From the NCBI RefSeq assembly GCF_000003605.2, contig NW_003137831.1, positions 428,018-474,807 on the forward strand: a DNA stretch of 46,790 nucleotides. The letters run 5' to 3'. Made by a program: the position numbers and the translations under genes. The notes below the pieces were generated by a model. That model ran no database searches and was not told the origin of the DNA. It saw nothing but the letters and a program-made list of their open reading frames with translations. Shown here one piece after another: positions 1 through 25,745 of the stretch. The stretch's first letter is position 1; each line of letters starts with the position of its first letter. The DNA is from Saccoglossus kowalevskii. Lineage: Eukaryota > Hemichordata > Enteropneusta > Harrimaniidae.

Positions 1-725
1 CAAAATGGCCGCCAGTCGGCCATTTCGAACTTGATCCGAAAAAAAAAATGACGTGCATCAAGGTCCTATTATGTTTAATGTATGTACCAAATTTGAACGA
101 AATCCGTCCATGCATAACTGAGATCCGGGTCCGGAATGGTGAAAATGTGCGATTTTGATGCATTTTCGGCCTTAAAATGGCCGCTATTCGGCTATCGTTA
201 ATGAGATCATGAAACAAATGCACATACATATTTGTGACATGATGTACCTCGTGTGTGTGAAGTTTGAACTTGATCAATCCAGACATGTCTCGGATACGGA
301 TCCAGAACTGAATTCTTTTAAACAAAATGGCCGCCAATCGGCCATTTCGAACTTGATTCGAAAAAAAAAATGACGTGCATCAAGGTCCTATTATGTTTAA
401 TGTATGTACCAAATTTGAACGAAATCCGTCCATGCATAACTGAGATCCGGGTCCGGAATGGTGAAAATGTGCGATTTTGAGGCATTTTCGGCCTTAAAAT
501 GGCCGCTATTCAGCTATCGTTAATCAGATCATGAAAAAAATGCATGTGCATATGTCCCATATAATGTGTGATGTATGAGTGAAGTTTGAACTTAATCGGT
601 CCATTCATGTTCGAGATACAGGTGATCACGGACGGACGCACGGACGGACGGACGCACGCACGCACGCACACAGGGCAGAACATAAGTCCCCGTTTTCGGA
701 CTACGTCTGAACGGGGACTAATTAC
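1..725. repeat. Two-copy 322-bp tandem repeat with terminal (ACGG/ACGC)n tract and foldback
   Basis: The block starting CAAAATGGCCGCCA at 1 recurs almost unchanged at 323, giving a period of 322 bp. The second copy runs into a degenerate tract of ACGG and ACGC units at about 631-672. It ends in a perfect 10-bp inverted repeat, AGTCCCCGTT at 685-694 and AACGGGGACT at 710-719. Each unit also carries short internal palindromes (GGCCGCC...GGCCATT). The architecture is that of a dispersed non-autonomous repeat common in marine invertebrate genomes. I see no coding capacity and cannot name the family. Copy 1 may begin before the window. It lies inside the inferred Sowah intron 2. Confidence 0.85.
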
Positions 726-3700: not shown

Positions 3701-4912
3701 ACTAGAATACAGCAGAATACAACAAATTAAAGTGGAGAAAGTGATCAGAAATTTAGTTATTTATGAAAACATCTCTATATCGATATAATCAGAGACTACT
3801 TGTAGTGGTTGTAAGCTACATAATTTACTGAAAACATCTAGTAATGCCATTTACAAAGCCAAAAAAGACACATGGCAACTGAAATTGTGGGGGGAAAATG
3901 AACAATATACAGGTAGGAATATACATCTATACAATCTTACTGCACAATGTGCATTTGGGTCACTGGTCACAAGTGAAGGGGTATTATAAGGTTAGAACGC
4001 TTAGTGTTCGATGTATATCACCAAAATAATTCCTTGCCCACAATAAAATACATAGTAAAATCCATGTTACAAATATGATACACAATGTAAGCACCAATAG
4101 TGCTTTGACATTGTATACACATAAGGGAGGTGTGATAGTTTATTCATTAGGATGATACACACACATTTCAGGTACAGAAGTATGAATAAGAGCATTCTTG
4201 AACCTAACAGTGTACAGTAGTAATGTGCGACTCTCCTGTTCACAGATGGGACAGATTTTCTTTAATTATTCACAAATCTTGTTACCAGAGTCCTACTCAA
4301 GGATACCTTGTAATGAAAGTTCTTCATTAGAAAGCAATGTGTTCATAAAAGAGAAACACATCATTTTGCAATCAACTTTTCAACAGAAACAGTTATTTCT
4401 GCTATGGTGCAATTTTAACTACAGGGAATATGCTTGAATCTTGCCTTATGCTACTCACACAATAACTATAAATGTTATCAGAGTGAGATGTAGCTGAATA
4501 ACAATTACTCAAGTTTATTGGCATAAATGTTGGGACATTTATGAAACATTGGCTAGCCACAAATTAACACGGCAACCACTTTTAAGTAGATCATTTGCAG
4601 GTTTGAAGTACATGGAACATTCCAATCAAGTACGTATTCTTGTGTCAAACAATTCAAAAAAACTGTCTCGTATCATATTAACCTTTTTGAGCGCCAACGT
4701 CAACTTCAGGCACCGTGCACAAAATCATTCCATTTATAGTCTGTACTTTTCCACATAAAATGTTGAGAAAATTGTGTCTGTTTGGTTCATAATTGGGATT
4801 GAATTTAGTGAAAATTACAGAAAAAGTGAACATATTTTCCCACATTTAAGCCGAAAAAAATTTGGCGGTCAAAGGATTAAAGTGGTTTACAGTATCGTTA
4901 AAAGTAACTTAC
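726..4912 (-). other. Sowah intron 2 (continues past left edge), no gene seen
   Basis: This AT-rich stretch has only short chance ORFs. I searched the minus strand for a third Sowah exon starting in phase 0 after the exon 2 donor at 4911-4912. I did not recognise continuation of the N-terminal SOWAH domain or any ankyrin repeat. The remainder of Sowah is therefore inferred to lie left of the window. Segments near 1250-1320 and 4840-4880 contain the TTTCGCGAAATTTTATTTTT style of sequence also found in the MITE at 5046, possibly decayed relatives. Confidence 0.5.
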
Positions 4913-4962
4913 GTCTTCCGTTTTGACAGATGCAACAGCATTCACATATTCCTTGAATTTGG
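4913..4962 (-). CDS. Sowah: Sowah-like gene, coding exon 2 (50 nt)
   Basis: On the minus strand the acceptor TTATTATAG is followed by 50 coding nt and the donor GTAAGT. Exon 1 ends with one base of a split codon. Joined to the two leading bases here it gives Ala, then KFKEYVNAVASVKTED, so the combined reading frame is 174 nt (58 codons) and ends in phase 0. The segment FKEYVNAVASVK matches the family pattern in which a short N-terminal helical module of SOWAH proteins continues as F-K-x-x-V-N-x-V-A-x-V-K. The matching phase, both splice sites and the family fit support the exon despite its small size. The next exon was not found in the window. Confidence 0.82.
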
Positions 4963-5045
4963 CTATAATAAACAGAATAAAAGAAAACTGTAAAATCAAA
5001 ATTGTTAACTATTGACATATTAATATTAGAATATTGGAGTAAAAA

Positions 5046-5257
5046 TACTGTGGAATACTTTATTTTCACTGGAATAAATTTTCGCTGAAAAAGCTTTTTG
5101 GGTGTTTTGAATGGAATTTATTTTCACTGATTTTTGATGAGTTTGATGTGAAATATAGGAAAAAAAGTATATTCGATGGATTTTATTTTCACAGAAACAT
5201 CCCTTCAGCTAAAATAGCAAAAATAAATTCCAAGCGAAAATAAAGTATTCTACAGTA
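5046..5257. mobile_element. MITE-like element with about 35-bp terminal inverted repeats and TA flanks
   Basis: The left end TACTGTGGAATACTTTATTT (from 5046) is the inverted complement of the right end, which reads TACTGTAGAATACTTTATTT on the minus strand from 5257. Similarity continues inward through TTTTCRCT..GGAAT..ATTTT for about 35 bp with a few mismatches. TA at both borders suits a Tc1/mariner-type target duplication. The interior repeats the GGAATTTATTTTCACT motif and has no transposase ORF, so this is a non-autonomous MITE of about 212 bp. It lies 84 bp from the Sowah exon 2 acceptor, inside intron 1. Confidence 0.8.
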
Positions 5258-7591
5258 GATAAATATGATAAGAACAAGGTGAGACCATGAATTGATGGAG
5301 ATGCAGAATGGATTGATAAAGATGTAAGTTTTTTTGTTTTTTTTTGTAAAGTTGATGAAAGTCGGTTCATTTAGAAGTGCGCATACTAAGTCACACACTC
5401 AGATGCAACGACAGATGTTGATTACCAATTTATATCAATGTTAGTGATGAATGCAGATAACACACTTTTCAAATTTTTGTTGTTGTCAAGTTATTCCCTG
5501 TAACTTGTTAATTTAGAGTCTGAAGAATTTGGGGCGGGGGGTCCCGAATTATCAACCCTCAACTGCATGTATCTTAATCAATTTCCATATTTAAATGACC
5601 AACATATTAGCAAATAACACTATGGGAATACCATGAAGTCAATGCTTTCAGGAAAAAAACAATCTTGGGTACTCCTACTTCTCTCTCTTTATTTTCACTG
5701 TATTTTTCAATTGACAAAAATTCAAAATGTTCATGCTTTTTAATTTTTAAGTATTTTCACTAGTTAGTCCGGAAACTCAGAATCTATGGTCAACCATTTC
5801 CAGGATGGTAAATGGCAGACAATGTGATCGCACACGTTCATTTATATCATGACGATATGATCTGCACTTGCAGTATTAATTTGTAATCTTGAATAGAAAT
5901 CTAACACATCCTCTGAAACATTTAGTCAATTAGAATAAGAATACCCCGACATATGCAAGAGTGATGGTAATTTTGTATGTACAAATTACCGTGAAGTAAA
6001 ATTTTTATCTAAAATTTCCAATATGAATATTGATAAACAATTCCTTTTCTCATACATTGAACCAATTATTAGATGGTGTAATGTGGCAATAAATGCAAGA
6101 AGGGTTACACAAAAACCTTAGTTGGCAGGTTAATACCTTATACCATAGTCAACTGTTTACTAGTAAAAAGTACTAAACATGTTTTATTATGCAGGTCTGG
6201 GTGACTGTCATACTATTGGATGATGACAATAAAAACTGTTGCCTGTGTGCTCACTCACCTCATGCACTGAAAAAAGTAACAAATTTATGGCGGGGAAATA
6301 CTGGTTTTACTGCATGCACTGTAACACATACCGAGTTGTTGCACAATATATCCAGATCAGAATTCAAAGCAATAGCAAGTGAGTGACAGAGCATGAGTCT
6401 ATCCTATGTACCGGTAGTAAGGTAGGCCTTGGATGCAGAGAGCACTAAGAATTTAATATTATGGTAAATTCAACTCAAAAAAACAAGAATCGTAGTTATG
6501 ATGGCAAACAAACCATTGCACAGGATACAATTGTAATAGTTCTTGCAGTAAAATTTAGAGATAAGGAGGAGTAGGGGTATGGGTTCACATAGCGTAATAG
6601 TTAAACAAACTTTAAATAGTGTAGATGATGTATGCAGAGTTTGGTTTAACGTCACAATTTTGAATATTATCCTGGTGAATAATTATTATTTTAATACCGC
6701 AGACAATTCACCAATGCGTTACCATGATTAGAATAAATGCTGACGAAGTTGAAGATGTTGCATGTTGTATATTGTGCAAGTAACCACTTCCGTGAGAGGT
6801 CATTCAGGGATTATAATACGACTATAATAAACAAAAAAACTGAAAATGCTTCATTGATTAAAATTTAGTTATGCAATCAACATTTACCAATTAATTATTT
6901 AATTTACTAAAGTTCCTTGCTTATCTGACACATTCAGGCGAGCATCAATCTACCACTGGCCTTGACAACATTGCTCTAAGTTCGTGTAATACACCACTCA
7001 GACAGAGGTACGATCAATTTCTTGGCTTGTATGGTTCTCTAAGTGTTGATAAATTTATATTTGTCTGACATTAATGATTTGTTGAAACATTCTGGAGGAT
7101 TTCGTTTGCTTATTCTGTCTCAGACATTGGCCACTATGGCATCAATTATTCTATCATTGTCGTACTGTTTCCCCGACGAAAACAAATTCATTGTGGAACT
7201 AAAGTTATAAGCTGGCCGGTTTGGTACACATCTCCAAAATGTTTGTTGCGAGTAGCCACTACATGTGAATTGTTTTAAGTATTATAAGGTCAATTGTCTG
7301 TGGTAATAACAATGTTTCAAACCCCAAACCATGCTGAAACTTAAGCGAAACCCCTAAACTTTTCCTCAAAGCATGGATGTACTAACTAAACTCTCACCCA
7401 AAACTGTATAATTTTAAGGTATTCCACTTGTGTCTTGTGCAATTATAAAATGGCATTTTTATGACAGGACTATTCCACACTCTCAAACTACACCAACACC
7501 GGTTGAGTGTTTAAAATTTTATTAGAAACAAGCTATTCAACACGAACTATATACCCATATTCCCAATAACTCTATATCGTGACGTCAGACG

Positions 7592-7607
7592 CCCCCCCCC
7601 CCCCCCC
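7592..7607. repeat. Poly-C homopolymer, 16 nt
   Basis: An uninterrupted run of 16 C lies just after the CRE-like palindrome. It is in Sowah intron 1. The exact length may be affected by sequencing error. Confidence 0.9.
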
Positions 7608-7832
7608 GTCTCTCACCAACCAACACCACAACCCGGCTAAAAACATCTGCACATGATACTGTTTGTAGTCCATTATTGGTCGAGGGTAGTGGTAGATGCC
7701 GTGTACCATGGTGCAGTCGACACAATATTATAATATCGCCTTTTATTATTGATGTTATCAAATGAAACTGAACGAACGGCTGATTGAGCATCGGTGTCCA
7801 CCGCAAATCACACACAGACACGCAAGTCTTAC

Positions 7833-7956
7833 CTTTGTTATCTGCATCATTGAAATATATCTTGAATCTTTTAACGAGGTGTTCATTTTTCGTTTTACCC
7901 CCATTTTGTACCAGGAAGTCCCTTATCCCAGCTTCGCTGAATTCATCTTCTGCCAT
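7833..7956 (-). CDS. Sowah: Sowah-like (Sosondowah ankyrin-repeat family), coding exon 1
   Basis: The minus-strand ATG at 7956-7954 opens 41 codons plus one base, ending at AACAAAG followed by the donor GTAAGA. The peptide begins MAEDEFSEAGIRDFL, then VQNGGKTKNEHLVKRFK and a DADNK end. This matches the SOWAH N-terminal module, in which a helix I-x-x-F-L-x-x-x-G-G-K-x-x-N-x-x-L-x-x-x-F-K precedes an acidic turn. An in-frame TGA lies four codons upstream, so this start is well fixed. Exon 2 at 4913-4962 continues in phase. SOWAH proteins carry C-terminal ankyrin repeats and their molecular role is poorly known; the repeats are not in this window. Sowah beside Irx is a conserved bilaterian linkage, which strengthens the call. 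It is transcribed away from Irx, with 13.6 kb between start codons. Confidence 0.85.
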
Positions 7957-7966
7957 TATTGAGATT

Positions 7967-7978
7967 CAAAATGGCGAC
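7967..7978 (+). promoter_or_regulatory. YY1-like site next to the Sowah start codon
   Basis: CAAAATGGCGAC at 7967-7978 resembles the YY1 consensus (AANATGGCG). YY1 sites of this form often sit at transcription starts of TATA-less genes. It lies 11 bp upstream of the Sowah ATG, antisense to that gene. This is one motif match, not tested for conservation. Confidence 0.35.
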
Positions 7979-8095
7979 TTTTTGTTCAGTGCGCATGTTC
8001 AGGAAGTTGTTCAGCCCGTGCAAACTTTGACTGATGACACTGATTCGTGACCTTTTGAATAAATCCGCACTTCGGCATCGCCGGCTTGGTATTTT

Positions 8096-8302
8096 CATGG
8101 AGGTACCTCCATGGTATTTTAGACTGAACATGAATCTGTTTTAGTGCGATTTGTATTACTGTGGACGTTGTTAATATGTTTGCTTCGATCAGGGAGCTGT
8201 ATTAATACATTACAGCTCCCAGCTTCGATTAAACGACAGTCGACGGTGCTTGCTTGTTCGTCTACAGTTGGTAACTGCATGGAGGTCTTTTCTACCTCCA
8301 TG
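8096..8302. repeat. Nested inverted repeats upstream of Sowah
   Basis: Three symmetric structures fall within 210 bp. The first is a perfect 18-bp palindrome CATGGAGGTACCTCCATG at 8096-8113. The second is a 10-bp stem GGGAGCTGTA / TACAGCTCCC at 8192-8201 and 8211-8220 with a 9-nt loop. The third has the same 9-bp CATGGAGGT / ACCTCCATG arms at 8278-8286 and 8294-8302, spaced by 7 nt and flanked on both sides by GTAACTG. The arms of the first and third structures are identical. The block starts 140 bp upstream of the Sowah ATG, so it may be promoter or 5' UTR sequence, or a small foldback element. Confidence 0.75.
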
Positions 8303-11300
8303 GTAACTGTGAACAGAGAAAAGGATTCTCAGAAAGAGAGGGTTTATCCACAGTCCCTGAGGTCCTCATATACCTGATTACAATTATAAATAACATTTTC
8401 GAAATTTCTATTACATTTTGTAGTCATCTTTGACAGACCAATCACCCCACCCCACCCCTCTCCTTCCACCACCGTTTTCAAGTGGGAAACCTTTTATACG
8501 GTGTTAGTGTGTACACGTTTTATATTGAAAAATCGTATAAGTTTTCTGCAATGAAAATAAATATAATGTTCACCCCCCCCCCCAAATGGCGAGTACATTT
8601 TCCTTCGAACAACTCACTATTGAAAACCGTCGGCTTCGTGTTGTGTTACAGTGTATTCCCGCCCTTCCCCTCCCCGGATCGGAGGTATTCGACACAAATT
8701 GACTATAAGTAAGCCATCCAAACTATAAAAAAAACGATCCTGTTCTAGCGAAACTTTGGTCTGAAAATGAAAGAAAAACGCTAATTTGGGAAGGGAAAAT
8801 GACAGTTTCCGCTCAAAAGTTATAACGCAAACCAAAAAATATTTTATTTTTTAATTTTTCAAAATCTGACCCATGTCTAGGGAAAATTCTGCGAAAAGTA
8901 ACCAAATTGGGCGGCATGTATAACTTTCCTTAAGTAAGTAAACCTGATGCATAAACCCAAGAAGTTTCAATCTTTATAAAGGCAACATCTGAAAACCCAA
9001 ACTGTAGGTGTAATTGGCTGAAAAGCATCGGTGACACAACGCCCACCGAAGGTTTATCGTGTCATTCAAACCGTAGTTCGGCAAACTAGTTCGCGTCATT
9101 GTCGTCCACCACGACCGTGACCAATTTCAGGTACTTGTGGAATATGACGGTGCACCGCAATCCAGATGTCTGGGGCGCAGGGATAAACTATTACAAGACA
9201 GTTGATAATGTACTGTATTATCGCAGAAAAAAAGAAAAAGACAAGCTACGATACAACGCAAACCATAACATAATCATGCCTTTATAAGGAAACAACTGGG
9301 GAGTTTGTAATATGTGCCACTGAATGTTTTCTGTAATAAGAATTTTCTTTCCTTGTATTCACATGTATACTGAACGCTATTCGTTAAATGTCACATTCGC
9401 GTCATTTTTGTGACCTTTTTTTTTATTATTATTAGTAAGGAAACCTTAGTCGACCAGATCTTTTGGGTCGTGTCTGTGTATGGACTACATCTATCTACTT
9501 TATCATCAAACACCGATCATACTTCAAATACTTGCAGGGACAACGGTGCCAAACTTTGATGGCGAGATTCGCGGGTGAACCTGAAATGCGCTGATGCCAA
9601 TTTATGCAAATGATCACATTAAATATTCTTACTGTCGTTGACAATAATGGACGGAAGCACATACGATGAATGTCCCACAAATGAATCGTGTTTCACCATG
9701 TGCAGAGGTCATGTATTATTTACAGAAAATAACGACAGAAAGAATCAGTATCTGGTGTGAGAATTATAAGCGAAATAACAGATTAAAATGAATTAAACGT
9801 ATTCATCCCGAGTAGTCGGTATTGATTTTTATTTTTTGTCACAATGCATTAAGAGTGAGAGCGATGAGTTTAGCTCCCTGTGTTATGGTAATGATTTTTC
9901 TTCCATTGGACTAAAAATCAATGACTTTATTTCTAAATTAATCGTTGTAAATTTGTTTGCAAGCTTGTAAGTAGTGTTTGTACGCTGTGTATCAAGTTAG
10001 ATATCGATGTCAGCTTCCGCCAACGCATCACTTTTAGTGTCTGCGAAAATCGAATAGCAAACACCGCCAGTTTCACTCTGCACGTAATTTATGTGGCTGG
10101 TTGAGATTTATGAAATAGGAACTTACCAACTCTCATCTATGTGGTTGTATGAGATAACTGTGATGTCGGCTAATAATGAATGAACTAAGTTATCTGTGGA
10201 ACCGACGCTGAGACAAAATCTAAATAAAAAAATGATTGCAAAAATAAAAGGAAACAAAAAGGCGCGTGTGACCCTCGGAGACAAAAAATGTCCTCCAAGT
10301 TAAGAGACAAAAGATAGCGCAATGTGATGGGACAAAACACTTTATATAGCATTTCTAGCATAACTGTGTTTTTTTTTTAATTATAATAACCTCTACCGAC
10401 TCATTCAAAGTACATGTACAAATCCAATGCCATTCGCCAACACCAATCTGACGGAGGCGATTTGGCGAGTTGTTCCACCATTTTATAGAAGTAGGTCTTA
10501 TATCTCGTATTGTGGAAACGGTCAGTCGTCCTATAAACACATTCTTTCTTTTCAAAGTCGGTGCAAACATTTCACTCACATGGCTTAATAAACCTGAAAG
10601 TGACATGCCAGTGGCTGTTTATGTAACAGTAATTTGTCACCTGTGTGTGGTAATCACGTACTTTGCATTATGGCCCTTGAACGGAGTTCCTAGGTAAATA
10701 AACCTTAACACATTTCCTGCAATGTGATTGGGACATTTGAACAAATGTTTTGCGGCGCTGACACTGATCTTGACAAACGTACACGGTAAAATGCTTTCTA
10801 TGCAATTGACCCTTGTATATGTCTGTAATGTTATTTTTTTTTTAAAACAGCGGAAGACATTGTATGTGGCTCATCCGTAGCTGAGGGCATGTTTCAAGCT
10901 AATACCACGAGTGGTCAATGCCAGGTAGACATACGAGCATAATAAAGATAAGTCTCGCATAATGTGGTGTGAAAACACCACGGGCAAATTCAAATCTAAG
11001 CAAGCGAGTTCGGCTAGCATTCCCGATATGTGGCGAAAGCATCCTCGTTTGCATCGCGATTATGCCCCTGTCAATGTCAGCTACCTCTCCCATCCGAACA
11101 GAAGAAAAGTCATTTCAGACAAGTAAATTTCAACATAATGAAAAATATTTGGCATTGTGATATCCTGTAAAGATGCCTAAATAGCCTGTCCACTAAATGC
11201 GCCAGGTGTGCTTCTTTTCTCATCCGTTTTAGGCAGCATTCTTCGACGTGTGAAGAATCAGTGGCGCATAATTGTGCCTTCTTCAACAACATGCAATGGC

Positions 11301-12163
11301 CACTTGAGTAATGCCAACATTGTTTATATTACAGATGGTTCGGGAGGAAAAACCTCTATGGTGTCACCTCCCCCTTGTCAAAATACTGTCGGCTATTTAA
11401 CACGAAGCTTCCTTTTAGCATATTCAAATTCATTGGCGCTTGTTAACACTTTATAAACGAGGTTGTTTTCCCAGTTAACAATCGCATAATGTATAGCGTA
11501 TGTCGATAATTAAGCGAAAACCGCGCGTTGTCGATAATGTGAAGAGTTGACCGAGCGTAAGTCATCTAAACACGAGAGTGAAAGGGGACGACAACGTTTT
11601 TATTGACGGCTCGAACAATGGGTGACATTTAGCTTGTCCACACCGTGATCAATAACTAACTGTGAAAACAACAATAGCGTGCAATTAGATGGACAATAAC
11701 AAACACGAACTCATTCACACGGTCTTCACAAGTGATGGGACAATTCACGGACCGGCTCTGAAAAGTGTACCCACGGGCTTTTTAATCATGCTAGAGTGTG
11801 AGATTAAAATACGGATTATACTTGCATTACGCTGTGGCTGTGGGCTGGAATTAGCGCACGTGCAAACAGCTCCACTCCCCGATTCCTAGAAAAATCCTAC
11901 CCCGCTGGTCATTTGACCATGGTACAAATTTATTAAATGAACGAGACCCTCCCCCATTCACCAGCACCATGTGTGTGCTCGTGACATTTGTTTTACGAGC
12001 GATTGGTACTCATTATTCACAAGTTGTGTGATCACATCGACTAGTTGGCGTTATTTGACATACCAGTATCTCACCGACCCCTCCCAATACGATAGCTAAA
12101 TCAGTTTGCGGAGTGCAGTGTAAATAAATACGCTTAGTTACTATCTATCACGTCTTTATTATA

Positions 12164-12300
12164 TAGTAAATTAATTACCCGGGGTTGCATATTGTTTTCT
12201 TGGTTAATTCATTAATTATCTGAAGGCGGGCAACTTATTAAAATTCTGAAGGAGAATCCATGCGGGAATCAGTGAATTTATGTGGCATCCTAATTAATAT
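12164..12300. promoter_or_regulatory. Candidate regulatory element rich in TAAT cores
   Basis: Within about 140 bp are TTAATTA (12171), TTGCATATTGTT (12185-12196, POU/SOX-like), TTAATTC, ATTAATTA (12211-12218) and TAATTAAT (12291-12298). Some GC-containing sequence lies between them, so this is not simple AT sequence. Homeodomain and POU-type clusters are typical of developmental enhancers. Conservation was not testable. Confidence 0.25.
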
Positions 12301-14015
12301 AGTTTACGAACGTCGCTAATCACTACGTTGAGCCCCGTTTATTTGCTCAGAGGGGGTAGCAAAATAAATACGGACAGTACGTCCCTGTGTCAAGCAACGT
12401 AAGCGTGCCAAGTTCCAATCCAACACCACGCGATCTTCACAGTACACGAGTAGGGGGTTGATTATATGATGATGATGTTGTATTTAGTTTGTCACGATGT
12501 CATAAGATATTTGAAATATACTATATGTGTGGTCATTTTGGGAATATGGCATGAATACTGACCAGCAGATGGACATTTCAAACATATTTAGATACCAATT
12601 GGAAAATACGAATGATTTATGTTTGTCTATCGAACATTCAAATAACTTGTGAAGATAGTTCCAAAACGTCTTTTTAATGCACTTATTATTTTGATACCCA
12701 ATTTGCAAGAATTGAATGCGTATATAGTCATGCCTTTTTAGTGATTGATGTTGCTGGGCATTCAGATGTGTCCAATCCGTTAAGTTGCAATTTTCGGCTC
12801 GATTAGTCGAGAGGATAGACTGTCTCCGTTCGCTTTGAATCGTTTTTCGAAATCTTAAATATCTATCGCATATGAATGATGTACAAAATCGCATTCGCGG
12901 GCGTCATTATTGATACTCCCCCAATTTGCCATCTCTAATTCTCCCATTGTCAAAGAAATCAAACGATACAACAGAATAGTACGCGGAGGAGATCAGTCTT
13001 TGCTGCCGGCAAGCGCAGTAAATCCCGTTGCTTTAATATACACACTGTTGAAATATTTATCTGTCTACGATTAGAATATGTTTTTGTATGCATGTATTCG
13101 TGTGTCATTAGATAATAACCCTGGCTAGAGCAAGCGGCTTTGCTATTACTGGCACAGGGGATACACTAGATATATGAACAGATCCTATCTCGGTCCAAGC
13201 CCATCCGATCCTCGGTTCCCGCAACAGAATGTCATTTGTTAGGATTATAGGGGAGATAGATTGGGTAGGAGTAGTTAGCTACCTAGTTACTGTCTAATTT
13301 ACTCACTTCTTTTGTTCTGCATGTGTTCACAAATCTGATTTACACTTAAATACAATATCATCTTTTTACACACAATAAATTTCACTCCAACAATACATAT
13401 ATTACGGCATTCAGGCGGTATTGATCGCTGTAATCGCTCGGTGTAAGAAGCTTGCAGCATCGTCATAGCGATGAATGCACCCCACTTTCCTTTTCACGAA
13501 AATAGCTGTAACACATAAAAGGCATCGAGAAAGCAATCTTCGTGAAAACGTCGACGCCCCCAAAAGAATCATCGTTTAAAAGCAAACTTTTCTTGCAATC
13601 AGAACATGAAAATCTGTTTTTTTTTTATTGAAAGCGCTGATGGCCGGGATACATGTATAGATGGACCCTGACAACGATGCTTCTGACGTCACATGCATGA
13701 TGGAGATGTTCGTATACCAACACGCCCGGATAAATTGGTTAACTCTTGTTTGTTTTTATAAGTACATTATCGTTTTATAACTGTTAATCACCTGTTTCCG
13801 TGACAATAACATGGCAAACCATTGTCAACATTCTTGTTAAAATTCATTGATTGAAAAACAATGTTTTGTTCACCGTGTAGAGATGATAGCGAGGGGCGTC
13901 TTGGACCGGTCAGAGGACGTGCGTGTGTCTTATTTCATAAATCACGTGATGTAAACATACCATCATGATCGTCCATCAGTAAGTGTGTCGGTATATATAT
14001 AATAATAATTTAATT

Positions 14016-14033
14016 ATATATATATATATATAT
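14016..14033. repeat. (TA)n microsatellite
   Basis: This short TA dinucleotide run is preceded by TATATATATAATAATAATTT from about 13992. It is a simple repeat only. Confidence 0.8.
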
Positions 14034-17000
14034 TGCCAAAATGCCAAAAAACAGGGACGCTTATAGATTTAGTAAAAGTATCAAGTTGAGAATGGAAGGG
14101 ATATTTTCTTTAGAAATAAAACGGTCGTTATGAACATCATTCCATTGAGAGTCATTTTTACGAGACTTTGACATAGGACTTTTTGTCATAAACGCCACTC
14201 TCCCATAACTTGACTATGTTTATTGTTTTATTGCTTTATCCACTGGCATTAACATACGTCAGAGATAGAGTATTTAGCGGTGCACGACAGGCATGTGCTT
14301 ATACTTCTCGGTGCCAGCTAGTGTGAATCATTATTACTATTCTACCTCATGAACATAGCTGAGCGAATTTTACCAATCTTTTTGCAATGTGTGTCCGTAT
14401 CTATAATCCAGCACTATATGGCACAGGAAACGTGTTTGTACACATACGCACATGACCTGGGAATCACATTTTCCAGTGTCTAGATGTTAAATGTCAGGTG
14501 CTGTCAAATTATGCGACGAAATCTTGTAATATATAAGTTCCAACATTGGGTTAACATTCACAATTTTGTGGGATTGTAGGTAATTTGTGGTACGTATATT
14601 TTCCCCCTCGTATTATATTCGCGCTTGATGCTTTTTATATTGCCCATTTCAAACGTTTTCCTCTAAAATGGTAGGAAATGGACCCAAACTACCGAGAGCC
14701 GTCGAGTTGTTTGGTAAATGGCGGCTTTTAGACGGTTGACAGATAATTCCCGTCATTTAGAGACTGTATTAGAGTATATATTCCGTGACATGCAAAGGGA
14801 ACTACTGTAATTACAACTTTTATTTTATCGCGTAAAATGCTAGCCAAACAAATTGTGATTGGCTCAGCCTGACAACCGACGCACCTGCATCGTAAGTAAA
14901 GAACCGGCTGAAAAGTTGAACAAACGGCACATCCCAAATTCCCATTGTTGACCATGATATTGCGCCCACTTGAGCTTCGTAAATTGGGGGCCGAACTTAT
15001 ATAACAGTATGAGGCACATGACAGAATACGGGGTCGAATGACGAAATAGTACAAAAGACTGACGTATAAGCCGATATCGTCTCCATTGACGAACGCGCTT
15101 ATCTCGAGTTTTGATGAGTTAAATGCGGTAAAATCATTTACAGTAAAATGAGACAAAATGGGACGGGGATTACGGGAATAAACTACACGTAACTATCTTC
15201 GGATTACTTTCAAATGTGTTTTAAGGATGTGGCGTTTTGGAATCGCATGTACGCTCATCCCATGGTAATTGATGTAGTCTGAGTTAATGGGAGCTGTACT
15301 AACGTGGAGATGTCCGTGTATAGCCCGCTAAGACGACTCGCACCGCTGAATCCCATTAGCGCTCATCTAACATGGCTTTCACGCAGATTTTGCCCCCAAA
15401 TTTATCGTCCTATGCTTGACTTACTTTTACCGATAGTAGTCTCCGTGAAAGATGTTTAAATTGGGTAGTATTTGGGGTGCAAATACTTCGCATTACCCAC
15501 CAAATAGCGAGGTTAAACTTCTGTGCGCGGTGATCCTCCCGACTCACTTATAGCGGAAGAAAACGTTGAAATGTGCAATAACGGTAGCGGTCACGTGCTA
15601 CAATTTGTCTTACACGTCGGGTCATTCGGCGCGTCATCTGCTACGTCATAGCCATCTTTTTACGCGGAGTGTGAATTGATGGCAAACGTTTTATGTCTTT
15701 GCCACTCTTCACACTTTTGATTCACTTTCCCGTAACGCCCTTACGAACCTCGTCCTATGCGTAATAGCCAAATCATATCCTGTTAACGCTTGCACACTGT
15801 CAGACAATCCCCAGCGAAAGCCCGGTGGTGAGATGGGGAAACGCCATAACCTAATATGCGCTTCCAACGAATCTCTCTATATATATATTTATACTTATAT
15901 GATGGATATCATATGTGTTGAATTTCGTTTACTTTCAAAACAATGTTGCTTGTGTCGTTCGTTTAAAGCACTGGAATAGGAAATAAACTTGGTCCAGCTT
16001 GAGCGAGACATACTGGCGACCTTTTTCCAAATGTGCTCCGCTTTGTCATGCATGAGCACCGTAGTCTGACACCTACCTCGAAGCTCGGTTACAGGGAGTA
16101 GTTTCCAATACTCGACGCGTATGTCCGTATGTTGCATGTTTGTATATGCCTCTGGGCTTCCCTCTTTTCTTTCTTTCATTTTCGTTTTTGCTGGTAGCGA
16201 CATGGTCATTGTGGAGCACGCGTTTTTTTTTCAAATGCGTTGGAATGTGCGGCGAGCGCGCAGAGGAAAGTTGGATTGGTTATAATCGATAAATGGATTA
16301 TTGGTAAACTCTCAATCATACTGGTTCACGTAAATATCAGCATGTTTTTTGATTCTTAATTTTTTCCGAACAAATGTTCATACAATTACACATAGTAGAA
16401 TTTACGGATTTTTCGCAACTATTTACAACTCTTGGTTGGTTGTACAAAAACGCAAAATCCAATTAGAAATGGGGAGGCTGTGTTTTTTTCTTGGTATGCT
16501 AATCAGTAACGGATCCGGCGTTCCAATCCCTTGCCTAATTAGTCCGACATGAGCACGACTTTAGATAGCAGACAGAGATGTGTCTCCACTGTAACAAAAC
16601 AGTGTGGTCCCAGTGGTACCACCTCATCTCTATTCACTAAGCTCCGGGTTAAATTTTTTATCGGATATCTTTCCTCCATTATAAGGAAAGCACTCACTAA
16701 TACAGTTACCACGTGTGGTCGTTGGTTGATCGGATAACCGTAGTTTCTGAGGTCGCCGACAGTATTATCTGCATTGGTTAGGAGAGAAAGCGGTCGGCTT
16801 GGTGAAAAGAAGTCGGTACGTTGGGATAAAGTAAACAACAAGCTAAGACCCATAGTTTAGGTGTTAATGTGTTACAGTGATAATCACCAAAACAAAAAAG
16901 TTTCCAGACAATCTCGGAACAAAACAGGGAAAGTTAAAAAAAAGTAATTAGATTGTGTAGTCGAATGTGTTAACATACAGCGAAAATAATGGCTTTGTAA

Positions 17001-20000
17001 ATTTGTAATCTATTCGCATCAAAACGCTAAACGATACGGAGAAATCAAACCAACGCCGATTCCGCCGCCGTCACCGGGATCCAGAACTGAGGGATTCCCC
17101 CCAGTAAATGTATCTTTCGATTGAAAGGAAAGAACCAAGATAAAAAAAAAACGAAGTACCATGTCACTACACATAAAGGTCAAGTCGTGCTTAACAGACT
17201 AAAACATAACATACACAGTATTCTTCCCATGGGCGAGATCTCTACGTTCATAACACTTCGCAACTTCCGCTGTTATGGTGGTGTGACCCGCAACCTACAA
17301 GTGTGTAACACATTTTGACTTGTGAGAAAATAAAGACTTGACTTGTTGATCCGATCTACTAATTGCCTTTTTTTTTTACTGATAAACACTAATGTAAATA
17401 TTTTCTTTCTGCTTGTTTACATTTTTCTTCTTCTCCGCTGCAAAGCGGGGTTTATGTAAACTATTGGTAAACACGATTGCACTTGCTGATGACAGTTATT
17501 TGTACACATAGGCTTAAGTTCAAAGCAGTAAGTTAGGACACTGAGAATGAAACACGCCAAAGTGCGATCTGTTTGAATGGAATCCGAACATCTAACAAAA
17601 ATGTAAGGTACCGGGCGACTATCTTTTTTGTATGGTTTCTCTTGTGGTACGCGGTCGCGGCATCCCTTTATTCCATGAAGCATTCTGGGTATAAATAAAA
17701 CTTCGAATATAAAAACGACATCAGACGTAAAAACACGAATCGTTAGAAGATAGACCGCGTTTCGTCTTGACCGGAACTCGCGATTTGCCGAGTTATATTG
17801 GTTATATATCGCCATAGTGTTGCCTCAATATGTGTGAGTTGGTGCAACATTTAGTGGTGTAACACATGTGGGGTCGACGGAGAAACAGTCTTCAAACACC
17901 AACAAACTGCTTTATATGTTAGAACAGAACGATCGTATCACTCGGCGTTGGGTGCGTCCTAAGTATGGCTGCTGCTAATCATCGCAACCATCAAGCCAAA
18001 TATCTGAAGAATTTCACCAAAAAAAAGCAGACAACATTTTCCCTCAATGTAAATAATTGTGAATTTTATATATACAAGTTATTATTAATACTCGCACTGA
18101 TGCGCGCATGGATCGTGGGAAGTGAGAAAGTAGTTCTCATCCGGGTAATGTTAAAAATCTCTTTAATTTGTGCCATGATCTGTTACGTGTCGTTAGCAGT
18201 GTCTTTTTTATTCGCACCTTTTGCTATATGCTTCCCCATTAACTCGTCACATAAAAAAGCGCTGAGACACTGTCAAATAAGTCAAACACATTTATAAATG
18301 GCATTGAATGACAGTTAATGTGTCTAGGCATGTTTTACGAGAAGTACTTCTGAGGTAACAAGTACACCGATCATCGGTCGCACCGTGACGTGCTGCCCGG
18401 GATAACGCCAGTTGAAGTCCATTACCAATCGGGAATACACCATCCAATCTACATCCACACACCAAACGATTCTTGGAAGTCATGGCAACGGTAGTTAGGG
18501 AGTTTTGATGGAGGGCTACAATCTCGTTTTTTCATCTTCGAACGCTGTTATATTGCATGTGTATGTCTATCTCTTCTTGTATTTTCGCAAGCGGCGTGGA
18601 GTCTGGGGCTATTATTCGACTTAAAACACACGCGATATTAGCATGAAATTGAGTAGCGAACCTTTTCAAAACAGATACCATCTTGAATAGGGAATTCGAA
18701 TAGCCAATGTATGCATTTACACGTTAAGTACTGAGCTCTATCTGACATAGTACTTAGATGACTGCAAGTGAGTCTGGTATAAACAGTAGATGGACTAGAT
18801 GTGGTCGTCCCCGCCCCTTGCTCGATCGCCACCACCCTACTGGTATATATTGACTGTTTGCTTTGGCGGTCCGATGGCCTGCCTCGCTGGCTGCCACCGT
18901 AATCGAACGAACATACATTTACTCCAATTATGCTTGTTTCGCTGTCATTTTGCATTAGCGAAACGCACATACCGTGCAGAAGTCTGAAATCCATGGCATA
19001 ACATACATGTTTTGGGAATGGTAATGTCATCACGTTTCAATAAGTGGGCTTCCCAGCACTAATACAGGGGAGCACAAGGAGAGAGGCAGCTGGTACCTGA
19101 CAACACCCAACCCCTTACATGTTGCGCTTTGCTTTTTAGTTCAGCCTCCCAGCTAGTTGATACATCTCCTAATTAGATTCCTTCATTTAGCAAAGGGTAT
19201 GGTTTTAATTTGCTCAGTAAGCTATGAGCCCACATCTTATGAAATATGCAATCAATATCCGCGCCCAGGGCATGGAGCGATAACTAGCGTACTTCTGTGC
19301 ATATCCACCTAATTGAGCGTCAAGTACAGTCATAAAATCGCTATAAAAACCTCCCGATTAGTTCCCGACCCACTCACTAAACTCAATCGAAGTCGAGAAT
19401 GGCATATCATAAGTTTATTTTGTTCAATTTCACATGGTGGACTGAATGCGATGAAACGCACCGGTTCGTTCTTTGGGATGTGGTCCACACTGTGGGCGGG
19501 TGAGTGTAGCTGCAAGGGTCGGCGTTCTCTGTGCCCTTTTCTATACAACGTGCCAAACTTTCTAGCGATCAGTTTCCTGTTTGCTGAGAAAGTAACGAAG
19601 CCTAAGGCCAAATGGTCACGAAGTAACGTAGCAATGTTCGAAACATTGTTTATTATGTGTTTACCTTATCCAAGACGCGATACATGTGCTGGGAGCTGCC
19701 GAAAGTAACTCTGTAGGCTTCTCTTGTATGTTTTACCTACCGCACCATATTCAGTTTCCTGTCTACTTTCCATGTATTATACGCATATTGTAACTATTTT
19801 CTTAAAAATAGAATATCCACATTAGATCCATGAAAGTAACCAACTATCCACAATTACATGTTTTGGAACATCTCTTTAATAATAATAACAATACCAGCAA
19901 GACAGTTTTACAAGCTTTCTTCAAAATTATAGACTCGTTTATCCCCGTTTCTGTGTTTAAAAAATCTATGTTTGTAAAATCTAATGAAAGGCACAATATT

Positions 20001-20874
20001 TACGTTTGCATGGAGAGAATAGTGAGAAATTGAGTTTTCCGATTGCGTACGTGTTACGAGCCACTACCAGCTGTTTTTGTAACTAGCATTGCATTTATAA
20101 AACTCCGTGAAGGACGGTATAAACCCCCGCCCAAGGCAAGATCATGAAAACTAAAACTTCAATAAAATAACACTTGTGGCCAGCTACTGATACGCTTGCG
20201 TCTGGACGTAATTCGACTTGGATATTGAGTTGGGTTTCGGCACATCGGCAGGTTTGTCCTCCCACAATAAAATTCGAATGGTGTACGCTAGCTTGATCCA
20301 AGACAAAAGTTATAATGAGATTTGTGGAAACAAACCGCCTCCCATGCGAATTTGTTTTCATTTAATCTGCCGTCCAATATGCGAATCGTAAATTAAGCTA
20401 TATTCCGAGGCGTGTAAAACCGAGCGATCTATCCAGAAAAAAAAGAATTGCGGCCTATGTGACTATGTCCACAGACCGACTGGACCAAATGATGAATTGT
20501 CTTTAGGAAAACGTGTAAAAAGATAGGTGTTAGTTGCCTCAGGGCATTGGTTTGTGTATGGTGTAAACTTGGAATAGTATTACCAACAACAACACTGACA
20601 AGATGGTGGTGTACGGTCGTGATGATATATGGAACATGGTCCATGGTCAGTGATCGAAATAATGTTCCCTGGCTGCCAGACGAAAAGCGCGCCCGTTAGA
20701 CTCTAACCTATTGCATAGTCGAACAGTTAATTTACAATCATATATAGCTTACGTTAACGTGTTGTATTTTTTCCGAGTACGCTCTTACAAAGGGGTCATA
20801 GCTTCCCTGCCAAAACAGTGCTTTATCATTGTCCATTATGCCTGCCTGCCGAGTTTGTGATGTGAAAAACAACA

Positions 20875-20916
20875 CCCATAGTGGGCTGGCATCTGTGCAC
20901 TCCGCCCACTTGTGGG
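20875..20916. promoter_or_regulatory. GC-rich inverted repeat in the Irx upstream region
   Basis: CCCATAGTGGGC at 20875-20886 pairs with GCCCACTTGTGGG at 20904-20916. The core arms GTGGGC / GCCCAC are perfect, and a GTGCAC palindrome lies between them. CCGCCCAC matches Sp/KLF-type boxes. The block is about 600 bp upstream of the Irx ATG, where a promoter-proximal element would be expected. The function is inferred. Confidence 0.3.
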
Positions 20917-21246
20917 AGGAGTTCGCACAGCGGCGACCTCGCCGAGCTACCTAAATGGATGTTAAGTATTCAGTCGAGTTGACTGTCAATCATTTTAGCG
21001 CATTCGACCAATGCATTTAGTTGGTTATAAATTAATTCGATTGGCGAGGCCCAACGGAACTGTCACATCAAGGCAAGTGTCGCTGTGACGTATGCATGCT
21101 TGTTACGGGAGCACAGCTACATGCAGCTAGCACCAGGCTGATAAGATAGTAGTTACTAGACCCATTCTTTACTTTTCATAGGAACCAAGGCCCATACACA
21201 GCGACTGTGCATTACACAGAGTTACTCATTCTTGAAAGAGACCCAC

Positions 21247-21252
21247 TATAAA
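21247..21252 (+). promoter_or_regulatory. Possible Irx TATA box
   Basis: TATAAA in ACTATAAACGGG lies 266 bp upstream of the Irx ATG. A start about 30 bp downstream would give a 5' UTR near 240 nt. A second candidate, TATAAAT at 21026-21032, has CCAAT-type sequences nearby at 21008 and 21040. Neither is confirmed, and developmental genes often lack a TATA box. Confidence 0.25.
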
Positions 21253-21517
21253 CGGGTTGTTTATTAGTGCACCCTGGCTGCACTTAAACGTGCGTGCTTC
21301 CATACCACTGACCGGGACTTGGACTTACATTGAAACTACCGTGTACTCTTCTCTGCTATAACCCAGTCCTGGTGCTTGATTACCTGATCCACGCTGTCCG
21401 TCTTCGACATAGTTAACGATAGGGAGTGATTAATAGTTCTTTGCGTGGCGCTGGAAAGTAACCCTATTTTTAAGCGATTCCACCAATTCATCGGGATATT
21501 ATCGTGGCCGCGTTGAC

Positions 21518-21559
21518 ATGTCGTATCCACTTGGTTATCCATATCCAACGTCTTCTCAG
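21518..21559 (+). CDS. Irx: Irx exon 1 (14 codons)
   Basis: The exon encodes [14 protein letters not shown] and ends in phase 0 at CAG before the donor GTAAAT. The MSYP/MSFP start and GY motifs are shared with vertebrate IRX N-termini, which supports the choice of ATG. Intron 1 is 181 bp. Confidence 0.92.
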
Positions 21560-24500
21560 GTAAATATAATCTACGTTATCAACTATTCCCAACTATTCTG
21601 TGTACACCAAGCGTTAAATTGGACGACCGGACATCAGAACATGGTCGTACAGCTAATGCCCCTTGTATTAGCCGTTAATTTCTCCCACTCCTGCTTACGT
21701 TTTACTCTGTTATCTTAAACCGATGCAATTTTCTTTGTAGATACTCATGTCAAGCGTGAGTCACAGCGGTACATCGTGCTGCGAGAGTGGACGTCCGATT
21801 ATGACCGACCCGCACACCGGACAGACTGTGTGTTCTTGTCAATACGATGCCAGTCGCGCTGCGATCATGCACTCAAGAGTAGCCGGCCTACCGCTAATGT
21901 ACGGTTCAAGCTACACAGCCGAACAAGGCTATGTACCAACATTTGGCACAGATCCGTCAGCCTTTTACTCACCATTGGTATGTATTTGTAGCTGGTGATT
22001 TCTGTACTTGTTTTTAACTGCGAGCATTTTTGTTCATACCACCGATAAACAGAAAACTAGCACACACAAACTATCATCACTCGGCGACTGTGTTTATTTC
22101 AAATGTTCGATCTATGTGTATATAGTATTCAAAGAATAGAGCTAGATACCAAGCAGCGAGGTTTGAAAAGCGAATATTATCGTACTTTTTTTTGAATGCT
22201 TGCCGTTAAATGGACAAAAAAGTTTGTGTTTGTGGACCGGCAGCTGATACTATGCACATCGGGGTTGTCAGTCTGTCTGGCTCGCGAAACCACTTACACC
22301 CATTGCGCATGGTAAACTTCAAAGCACTCAAGCTTAAAATTATCAAATCTTGCTGAAAAAACCAAACTCGTCAATGTTTTCGGCGAATTATATCCATCGA
22401 CACGTTTCTCATCCATTTTCTTATTTGTGATTTAATTTCAGAACACCACGTACGATCTAAAAGGCAGCGCCGAAGGAGGCTGGAGCGCTACACCATACCA
22501 ACCCACCGCTTGTTACCCATACGATCCAGCTTACCAATACTACGGGGATAGGTGCGTAGTATATGACATTCAGCGAATAGTTTTACCGACTCCGATTTCC
22601 TGGGCTATTGTTGATTTGGAGGGTCTTATAAATGGTGCTTTAGTACTTATTGATGTGAAATCTGTAGAGACTAATGTTGTTACGTGAAATCATAAGTGTA
22701 CTTGTTATAATTCAATGTAACTTTAAATTAAATAATTAATAATGAAACCGTTTCTGTTTTAGGTATGGCGGCGTGGACATTAACGGTGCTGCTAGGAGGA
22801 AAAACGCCACCCGCGAAACAACAAGCACTCTAAAAGCCTGGCTGTACGAACATCGAAAAAACCCATACCCAACGAAAGGAGAAAAAATAATGCTGGCTAT
22901 CATCACGAAAATGACCTTAACGCAAGTGTCCACGTGGTTTGCGAACGCTAGACGACGTCTTAAAAAAGAGAACAAAATGACTTGGTCGCCGAGAAACCGA
23001 TGTGGGGACGATAGAAAATACGATTCTGGCGACGAAGACGGCGACAATGAAAACGACGATGATAAAATCGATATTAAAGATGACGATGAAATCCTCTCAG
23101 ACAGGTTCGATGGGCTAGGTGAGTAGTTTATGAAGCCAAGTACTTAGCTCATTATGGCGCTCATTAACGTCCCGTGGAGATTGCTAACTATACTTATAGC
23201 GTTCTCCCAGTATACCATATAGAACCAAAACAATTATCCCCACTTTCATTTATTCTCAACTTATGATTTCGCATGCTATTAAAGTGCAGTTGGGGTGGCG
23301 ATCGATTCATCGTTTATTGTCGTTTCATTTTTATCCGGTTTTCCTCCTGCCGTGTCGGCAAACAAAACATATAGTTACATTATTTTCTGCAAATCATCGA
23401 CTCGTTTATCTATAGCACGGGTGTTGTTGTTTTTTCTCCGGAAATCCACTTGCGGTTATTTTTGGAAGTAGGGGATTAAAAAATAAATAAAAACTATATA
23501 TATGTATATATTTTAAAATGATGTTAGTGCATTGAGTGATTGTAGAGTGAAATGTGATAGGCTCAGTTTGGCAATCTTACACATCAATAACATTTACTTG
23601 CGTCTTTTTAAATTTTTAATGAGAGAATCACTTTGATGCAAAATTGCTCTTTCCTGTTGATCTAACAAAAACCCATTTGATTGCATTAAATATAGATACT
23701 GATAAAGAAATTGATGATAAAGATAACAGCGATGATGAGGACCAAGATCATCTGGGAGGAAAGGCTGAAACCAGGCATTCGTCGGCTAACGAAGATTCGC
23801 TAAGTTTGTCCCCCTCACCGTTATTGTCACAGAACATTGGCACAAACAGTAGTTTGCTTACTCCAGCTACCTCAACAACTTCGCAACAACAGCAACCGCC
23901 GCAACCGCCAACGATTAAGCCAAAAATTTGGTCACTAGCATCGTTAGCAGGTACATCGTCAAGTCCAACTAGTCCAGAAATGTCGCGAAGGTCTCCGTTA
24001 TTGTGTCACCAACCTTCAGCCAGTACCTTCCATCAACCCCATTTGAACACGGAACCCAATGTGAGTTCTCTTCAACACTGGGTAGACGGGGTGTTCCATC
24101 ACCACCATCATCACCACCATCAACAATCACATTTAACGTACAGTTCGACGAGTAGGACTTCTGCGGCAACGTCAGTGTTATCGTACACGGCGCAAAATTC
24201 ATTACTTGGAAATGAACATTCGGCGTTACGATCGCCACCCGGATCAAGTAACATGAACGGTGACCATTTGCCCCCTGGTGGACCGTGCCGGGACTTGGCC
24301 ATGATTGCCCATAACAGTGCGGAAGCTGCCAAATACAGTGTTGCTGCTTTGCATCCAAGTCGAGATGGTATGTGTAAATACGCTATTTCTGATAATTACA
24401 TCATGGAAACCATTACGTACATCCAGTATAACGTGTTTTATAATTACCGTTGACCCAAATGTATTTGACTACGTATACGTAGGGTACCACATTAGAGAAA

Positions 24501-25745
24501 ACACGCTGCTAACTTTCCACGCAAATTTGGAAGATACTAACGAAATAAAATAAATGCGGAGAATTCTTATCTCGTTCCGCTTGTTGAGTTTTAATTTTAC
24601 TTTGAGAAGAAAAAAAGCGAGGTTTCACATGTCTAATTATTGTGATAATTTTGTTGTGGTTTTTTTAGATGACTTGAGGGAGAAATCAGTGGTGCATCCA
24701 AATGATAGCGACGAACCCATTAGAACAGCCTTCAAACCGGTAGCAAAGAGGTAAGCTTAGGTAAATAGTGAACTTTCCTTGTTCCTAATTTCAATTGCTT
24801 TTTTTGTGGGAAGTTCGTGCCAGTGTCAGATTTGTGTATCACCAAAACCCGGCCTGCGCGAGAAGCGTAGCTTTATAGCCAATGTCCACGACAGGAAGCT
24901 ATGACCCCTATGACAGGAAGCCGCCTGATTGTCTTAGGTAACGTCACTTTAGCTATGAAGCCAGAGCTGAAAAAAATCTACGTCCCCTGATTTCACCAGT
25001 ATTATTTAAAACACCCGTCCATTTTTTTTATCAAAATATTTGTCTTATTCATTTATTCTTTTATTTAGCGAAGATTGCTTTATATTAAATTAATGCGTTC
25101 TCCCGATTGTTGGGGCCCTCGCACAATTGACGGCTGATCTGTTCTGCTATTGATGTCGGATTTCCATTGAAAAAAATAATATGCCGTCTCTTGATTTAAA
25201 AGTTAATTTGATAGAGAACGAAAAGTCCGCTGCTTGTATGCATCTGTTACCCATACATGCTTCGTCACACACTCAAAGTGCAAACCAAAATTAGTTCGAT
25301 GCCATGTGCCTTTATCGTCGTGTATGGGGGTTTAACATGCACCAATAGTACACTGTCACGAATACTGCTGTCCATACCGTGTATTGGTACTCAGCGGCTC
25401 TCACATTTACGTATATAACTAGTGTTATAGAAATAACCTCTGTATTTTTAACAACAATCGGGGCGTAAAAAAAGTCAGCAAAATGACTGACTGACTGATA
25501 CACTCCATAATCCCTTGCATAGTATTTTTTAACCCAAAATCCGTAGTTACTATTCAATCTGATACCACATATTAAAGTTTAATAACCGCAATTTAAATCA
25601 GGAACGTATAAATGATATCTCCACTAATTAAATATACATTTATGTCTTTTATTCTAGGATAGGACTTAATATTGGCATAAATGGACAATCGATTCCACTG
25701 GAGTACGACGCAGCGATGGCTCTTACGAATCTTTCATCGCGGTGA
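21518..25745 (+). CDS. Irx: Iroquois-class TALE homeobox transcription factor, 7 exons, 528 aa
   Basis: This DNA-binding developmental regulator acts in the nucleus. The exons are 21518-21559, 21741-21977, 22442-22551, 22763-23118, 23696-24367, 24669-24750 and 25658-25745. All introns are GT/AG and the phases join without error to a TGA at 25743. Residues 27-50 carry the conserved [21 protein letters not shown] block. A TALE homeodomain lies at about 138-200 with the loop PYP at 164-166 and the recognition helix WFANARRR at 188-195; position 50 is Ala190. An acidic stretch spans about 211-267. KPKIWSLA is at 323-330 and an Iro-box-like LQHWVDGVF at 374-382, directly followed by eight His (383-390). 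TAFKPV is at 492-497 and the [11 protein letters not shown] tail at 517-527 matches the ends of vertebrate IRX proteins. The start MSYP agrees with other family members. Length is typical. Introns contain no other gene. Confidence 0.97.
21741..21977 (+). CDS. Irx: Irx exon 2 (79 codons)
   Basis: The acceptor TTCTTTGTAG precedes ATACTC and the donor GTATGT follows TCACCATTG. The exon encodes residues 15-93, including the Cys-rich CCESGRP and VCSCQYD block that is characteristic of Iroquois N-termini. Both junctions are phase 0, so skipping it would keep the frame. Intron 2 is 464 bp. Confidence 0.95.
22442..22551 (+). CDS. Irx: Irx exon 3
   Basis: The acceptor TAATTTCAG precedes AACACC and the donor GTGCGT follows GATAG. 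It encodes residues 94-129 plus two bases of Arg130. NTTYDLKG and the Tyr/Pro-rich [13 protein letters not shown] segment correspond to the YELK and YYPYG regions just before the homeodomain in other Irx proteins. Intron 3 is 211 bp. Confidence 0.95.
22763..23118 (+). CDS. Irx: Irx exon 4: homeodomain and acidic region
   Basis: The whole TALE homeodomain is in this exon ([42 protein letters not shown]). It is followed by the first half of an Asp/Glu-rich region containing IDIKDDDE. The donor is GTGAGT. Reading through the donor meets TAG at 23124-23126 after Gly-Glu, so intron retention would give a 250-residue protein lacking the Iro box. Confidence 0.98.
23696..24367 (+). CDS. Irx: Irx exon 5: acidic end, KPKIWSLA, Iro-box-like and His-rich region
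   Basis: The acceptor TTAAATATAG has a weak polypyrimidine tract, but phase fits exactly: G from exon 4 plus AT gives Asp249. It encodes [18 protein letters not shown], a Ser-rich stretch, a Gln/Pro run (QQQQPPQPP), [17 protein letters not shown] and eight His. It ends SRD at the donor GTATGT. Intron 4 is 577 bp and intron 5 is 301 bp. Confidence 0.95.
24669..24750 (+). CDS. Irx: Irx exon 6
   Basis: The acceptor GGTTTTTTTAG and donor GTAAGC bound 82 nt encoding the end of Asp473 to the first bases of Arg500. The TAFKPVAKR segment matches the TAFQPVPRR segment near the C-terminus of vertebrate IRX3-type proteins, confirming this small exon. Intron 6 is 907 bp and holds a direct repeat GACAGGAAGC at 24892 and 24912. 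Confidence 0.93.
25658..25745 (+). CDS. Irx: Irx exon 7 (terminal coding)
   Basis: The acceptor TTTTATTCTAG is preceded by a good pyrimidine tract. The exon completes Arg500 and encodes 28 residues ending in [12 protein letters not shown] and TGA. The DAA..L..LSS pattern matches the DAALVLSALSS end of vertebrate IRX proteins. Confidence 0.93.

Follow-up and report, generated by a model that had tools for sequence, protein, structure and literature searches.

An Irx–Sowah gene pair in Saccoglossus kowalevskii and a step in CpG content at the 5' end of Sowah

Maeso et al. are said to have described, in 2012, an Iroquois-Sowah block with Irx enhancers in the introns of Sowah. Does the hemichordate Saccoglossus kowalevskii possess such a block, in which state is its Sowah gene preserved, and where may the enhancers of its Iroquois (Irx) gene be located? 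The stretch of DNA considered here (the window, 46,790 bases in total) represents bases 428018-474807 of contig NW_003137831.1 (679,650 bases; here termed C2925), and the contig was examined on both sides of it. In the window, an Irx gene on the plus strand and an intron-bearing Sowah gene on the minus strand are direct neighbors. They are arranged head-to-head, with 13,561 bases separating the start codons (7957..21517), in full agreement with the original prediction of a divergent pair about 13.6 kb apart. The locus very probably represents the conserved Iroquois-Sowah genomic regulatory block, i.e., Irx together with the bystander gene Sowah, the enhancer part of this interpretation being taken from the literature. 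In addition, the two genes are separated by a step in CpG content. This boundary is a new observation, while the linkage itself was already known.

Identity of the two genes

The plus strand gene extends from an ATG at position 21518 to a stop codon ending at 25745 and, as predicted, is complete. It consists of seven exons encoding 528 amino acids (21518..21559, 21741..21977, 22442..22551, 22763..23118, 23696..24367, 24669..24750 and 25658..25745, the last including the stop), with GT/AG ends and consistent phases throughout. The least certain boundary is the acceptor of exon 5, which was picked from several open AGs. Exon 4 encodes the homeodomain (Pfam Homeobox_KN, 2.4e-19) and aligns to human IRX1. 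Comparison with solved structures yielded 28 homeodomain sequences at 0.001 or below, with TGIF, PKNOX and MEIS on top. The complete protein matched a reconstructed partial human IRX1 sequence with 1e-41 and 42% identity across 223 residues and is nearly identical to it in the homeodomain. Judging from these matches, the gene is a TALE homeodomain gene of the Iroquois type.

On the minus strand, exon 1 (7833..7956, ATG at 7956, donor GTAAGA) encodes 41 residues plus one base and exon 2 (4913..4962, acceptor TTTATTATAG, donor GTAAGT) continues in phase (G|CC), resulting in 58 residues without a stop. Coordinates and joining of the two exons are exactly those predicted. As an alternative to Sowah, these exons could represent open frames arising by chance or parts of a different gene, in which case the expectation of linkage to Irx would have biased the assignment. 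The queries used, the N-termini of human SOWAHA and SOWAHB, were indeed reconstructed only when exons 1 and 2 were already known. Upon tblastn over the whole window, exon 1 was the top match for both queries (4.3e-6 and 2.1e-5), and the weaker of its two scores, 32.3 bits, was not attained in any of 300 random windows (first-order Markov). Exon 2 came second for SOWAHA (0.15) and for SOWAHB (0.67) stood behind one chance match at 0.49. Its score was equalled in 23 (SOWAHA) and 140 (SOWAHB) of the 300 random windows, and it is therefore not significant by tblastn taken alone. On the other hand, exon 2 proved best when ranked among the phase-compatible open AG..GT segments downstream on the same strand (664, of which 396 were long enough to score), with 43 vs. 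20 for the runner-up in the case of SOWAHA and 36 vs. 13 in the case of SOWAHB. No Pfam family matched the Sowah N-terminus above the cut-off, a result that is uninformative because the human queries for SOWAHA and SOWAHB likewise matched nothing. A comparison with PDB gave three chance-level matches each for the 58 residues and for the SOWAHB query.

Intron 1 of Sowah comprises positions 4963..7832 (ratio of observed to expected CpG, CpG o/e, 0.60). Intron 2 occupies 1..4912, where tblastn of the window with the SOWAH N-termini revealed no further Sowah exon, and continues beyond the left end of the window. There, in previously unseen DNA, the identical queries matched GEKYLVLKKKYRHL, TALHWAAKHGKKEM, GYTPLHIASMYGNEAA and ANVDARDYSGKKPKQHM in leftward order on the same strand, with E values of 0.093, 0.044, 0.003 and 0.83 that are weak when regarded singly, while ERQWMIAASAGETPTLSKLLIKEPHLAKQK was located by a motif scan (score 39, next best 8). 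The ankyrin exons that had been predicted to follow downstream on the minus strand were thus looked for on the contig and found in order. Altogether, five further Sowah exons are located left of the window, including the end of the N-terminal domain, an exon with the motif ERQW and three ankyrin exons. In contig coordinates, the exons found lie at 435850-435973, 432930-432979, 418047-418145, 400724-400825, 364121-364210, 362027-362099 and 360962-361224, the last containing the stop codon. Exons 1, 2 and 3 join in frame and match the human SOWAHA/B queries, such that the Sowah N-terminal domain is present. The exon with ERQW has an open frame, the ankyrin exons likewise join in frame, and all introns found have GT/AG ends. 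The gene model consists of the exons thus found and may lack some from the middle. The joined ERQW and ankyrin part matched Pfam Ank_2 with 4.7e-16. From ATG to stop, the gene spans 75,012 bases, and the prediction of an intron-bearing Sowah beside Irx thereby holds. Chance open frames are rejected by the random windows, the segment ranking and the ordered exons further left, and we consider an origin of the minus strand exons from chance or from another gene extremely improbable. The minus strand gene is a multi-exon, ankyrin-bearing Sowah.

CpG depletion along the Sowah body

Within the window, CpG o/e amounts to 0.41 in 670-7500 vs. 1.09 in 7957-46790, with 1.07 in the stretch between the start codons. 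The corresponding values are 1.00 vs. 1.05 for GpC o/e and 1.35 vs. 1.13 for TpG/CpA, and the longest CpG-free gap measures 703 bp in the former and 188 bp in the latter region. A single change-point fit that leaves out the left-terminal tandem repeat places the step at 7541 (support interval 6549..7698), about 0.3-1.4 kb from the Sowah start codon. The log-likelihood gain is 46.4, compared to 12.8 or less in 1000 permutations of 250-bp blocks. On the wider contig, the Sowah body exhibits a median CpG o/e of 0.44 with 1.9% of values exceeding 1 (1262 overlapping 500-bp windows, those containing N being dropped), as opposed to a median of 1.11 with 1.4% of values below 0.6 outside of it (1314 overlapping 500-bp windows covering about 66 kb, a few of which touch N at the edges). 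Of the CG, TG and CA sites taken together, CpG accounts for 0.085 within the Sowah body, compared to 0.241 outside. The readable part of Sowah is depleted all the way from its 3' end to its 5' end, while Irx and the readable flanks are spared.

Low CpG in combination with normal GpC and raised TpG/CpA fits deamination of methylated CpG. The depletion looks like the footprint of germline gene-body methylation confined to Sowah, and we infer that Sowah may be transcribed in the germline and methylated along its body, with Irx and its flanks unmethylated. As a different explanation, the step could mark the boundary between two compositional or mutational domains and be no methylation footprint of Sowah. 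The Sowah body is also poorer in GC (about 0.34 vs. 0.39-0.41 elsewhere), which could contribute to the difference, methylation is read here from sequence composition, and a tandem repeat of normal CpG content (1-619) sits inside Sowah. However, GpC is nearly the same on both sides of the step, yet TpG/CpA is raised, as is expected for the residue of methylated-CpG deamination, and the depletion coincides with the readable Sowah body from end to end, stepping close to the ATG. A mere domain boundary appears improbable, and we favor germline methylation of the Sowah body as the source of the depletion. Among the matches listed from the open-licence literature, no title refers to methylation of the Irx-Sowah block.

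Neighboring sequences and further candidates in the genome

The tandem repeat at 1-619 comprises 1.9 copies of a 322 bp unit and is CpG-normal inside a CpG-depleted Sowah intron, perhaps because it is young. Downstream of Irx, 21 kb (25746-46790) are CpG-normal and contain three long open frames without a Pfam match above the cut-off. For the window as a whole, a selection of ten long open frames was compared with Pfam without a match above the cut-off, and Rfam and tRNA scans of the window, including the 3' flank of Irx, gave none. About 35 kb past the Irx stop codon, an exon for a eukaryotic-type carbonic anhydrase is present on the minus strand (C2925:488930-489421, PF00194, 1.1e-13). Still further right, at 170-174 kb of the joined stretch, CpG o/e is lower again (0.64 and 0.75).

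A search of the 572-Mb assembly (4830 contigs) for Homeobox_KN gave nine matches, the one in the window being Irx. Among the other eight are loci that we take to be one TGIF-like gene, two SIX-like genes, one partial homeodomain and one zinc-finger homeobox gene. No second Irx was present among these five further loci read; the pattern applied revealed nothing in two of the three unread ones, and the third lacked a locus. With respect to a second or intronless Sowah, nine ankyrin matches were obtained elsewhere in the genome. This is a weak test for a Sowah retrocopy, because Sowah from the window's own contig is missing from the matches. Eight of these loci were fetched; three showed the ankyrin pattern and none of them read as Sowah type, five being unread for ankyrins.

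Linkage of the pair and position of the Irx enhancers

Linkage of Irx and Sowah has been reported as kept across bilaterians (PMC5585340, PMC8767184), as stated in the original prediction. According to PMC5803294 and PMC8793726, Sowah introns house Irx enhancers and thereby tie both genes together. A study on echinoderms lists Irx among the genes whose regulatory elements are shared between deuterostome phyla through conservation (PMC13317027). Enhancers of Irx located inside Sowah or in its vicinity would keep the two genes linked and, by extension from the literature, enhancer sharing would be the reason for the linkage in S. kowalevskii as well. As both the linkage and the enhancer explanation have already been published, the locus is a further example of a known block and adds one case to it. 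The published block likewise features Irx beside a multi-exon Sowah, such that gene content is equal, the CpG boundary being added here (PMC5585340, PMC8767184, PMC5803294, PMC8793726).

In Drosophila, sowah is located by ara and caup and thus linked as here, and the published deletions EGP1 and EGP3 point to the same gene order, i.e., a head-to-head arrangement. Lesions in fly sowah take effect via ara and caup, and mutation of su(Hw) suppresses the tilt phenotype, as would be expected if intronic enhancers were severed by an insulator (PMC12311624). The fly locus contains two Iroquois genes, ara and caup, whereas one Irx-like homeodomain was found here among the genome loci read. Furthermore, intronic enhancers are backed by genetics in the fly (PMC12311624), whereas they are candidates only in S. 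kowalevskii. The SOWAH retrogenes of tetrapods share the protein family with the Sowah described here (PMC5803294, PMC8793726). Unlike them, the latter keeps its introns and its Irx neighborhood, which corresponds to the ancestral state.

It could be argued that the linkage was passively inherited and that nothing regulatory binds the pair in this lineage, given that its regulatory function here is taken from the literature. We regard this as unlikely, as the pair is reported to be retained across bilaterians and fly lesions inside sowah act via ara and caup, and adhere to the assignment to a regulatory block. Several points nevertheless weigh against this assignment. The enhancer explanation is derived from the literature. 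The human SOWAH queries are reconstructed sequences, the exon joins of Sowah are predicted from genomic sequence, and parts of the fetched contig stretches read N. Four patterns failed to reveal the short piece that should precede TALHW, downstream of the ERQW exon and upstream of the first ankyrin exon. Finally, when about 63 kb of the Sowah body were scanned for CpG-normal pockets with four window sizes, these proved marginal only. The uncorrected p values of the largest pocket were 0.062 (200 bp), 0.034 (300 bp), 0.106 (500 bp) and 0.042 (800 bp), the pockets lying about 54.7 kb to the left of the window, near where the gene ends on its 3' side and, for 500 and 800 bp, at a distance of about 20 kb on the left. 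For the part of Sowah inside the window alone, p ranged from 0.18 to 0.66. The weak pocket found with 800 bp is located at C2925:408016-408816 (p 0.042, uncorrected).

Such scarcity of CpG-normal pockets is a poor simple fit with many enhancers in the Sowah body. The Irx enhancers of this animal may either be found for the most part beyond the Sowah body or be methylated in the germline and opened later. When methylation is lost in a cnidarian, chromatin opens and spurious transcription starts become possible within gene bodies (PMC13345969); gene-body methylation would accordingly keep intragenic chromatin closed. Extending this argument, we tentatively propose, as a possibility that we rate as rather doubtful, that the Sowah promoter divides the block into two epigenetic domains, with the 75-kb body of the bystander being methylated and the domain of Irx unmethylated. 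Irx enhancers would then mostly reside not in the Sowah body but in the 13.6 kb that separate the genes or in the 3' flank, or else in the few pockets free of methylation, for which the weak candidate some 20 kb to the left of the window is an example, and what maintains the linkage would be sequence close to the 5' ends that face each other and not the Sowah introns.

The Irx-Sowah pair is a classic case of gene order constrained by regulation, and the locus of S. kowalevskii cleanly illustrates the ancestral state once more, both in its orientation and in possessing a Sowah gene rich in introns and equipped with ankyrin repeats. The step in CpG content raises the question whether developmental enhancers persist within the methylated body of a neighboring gene or avoid it, and may thus call into question how far, in S. 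kowalevskii, the explanation of the linkage by enhancers residing in Sowah holds for the body of that gene.

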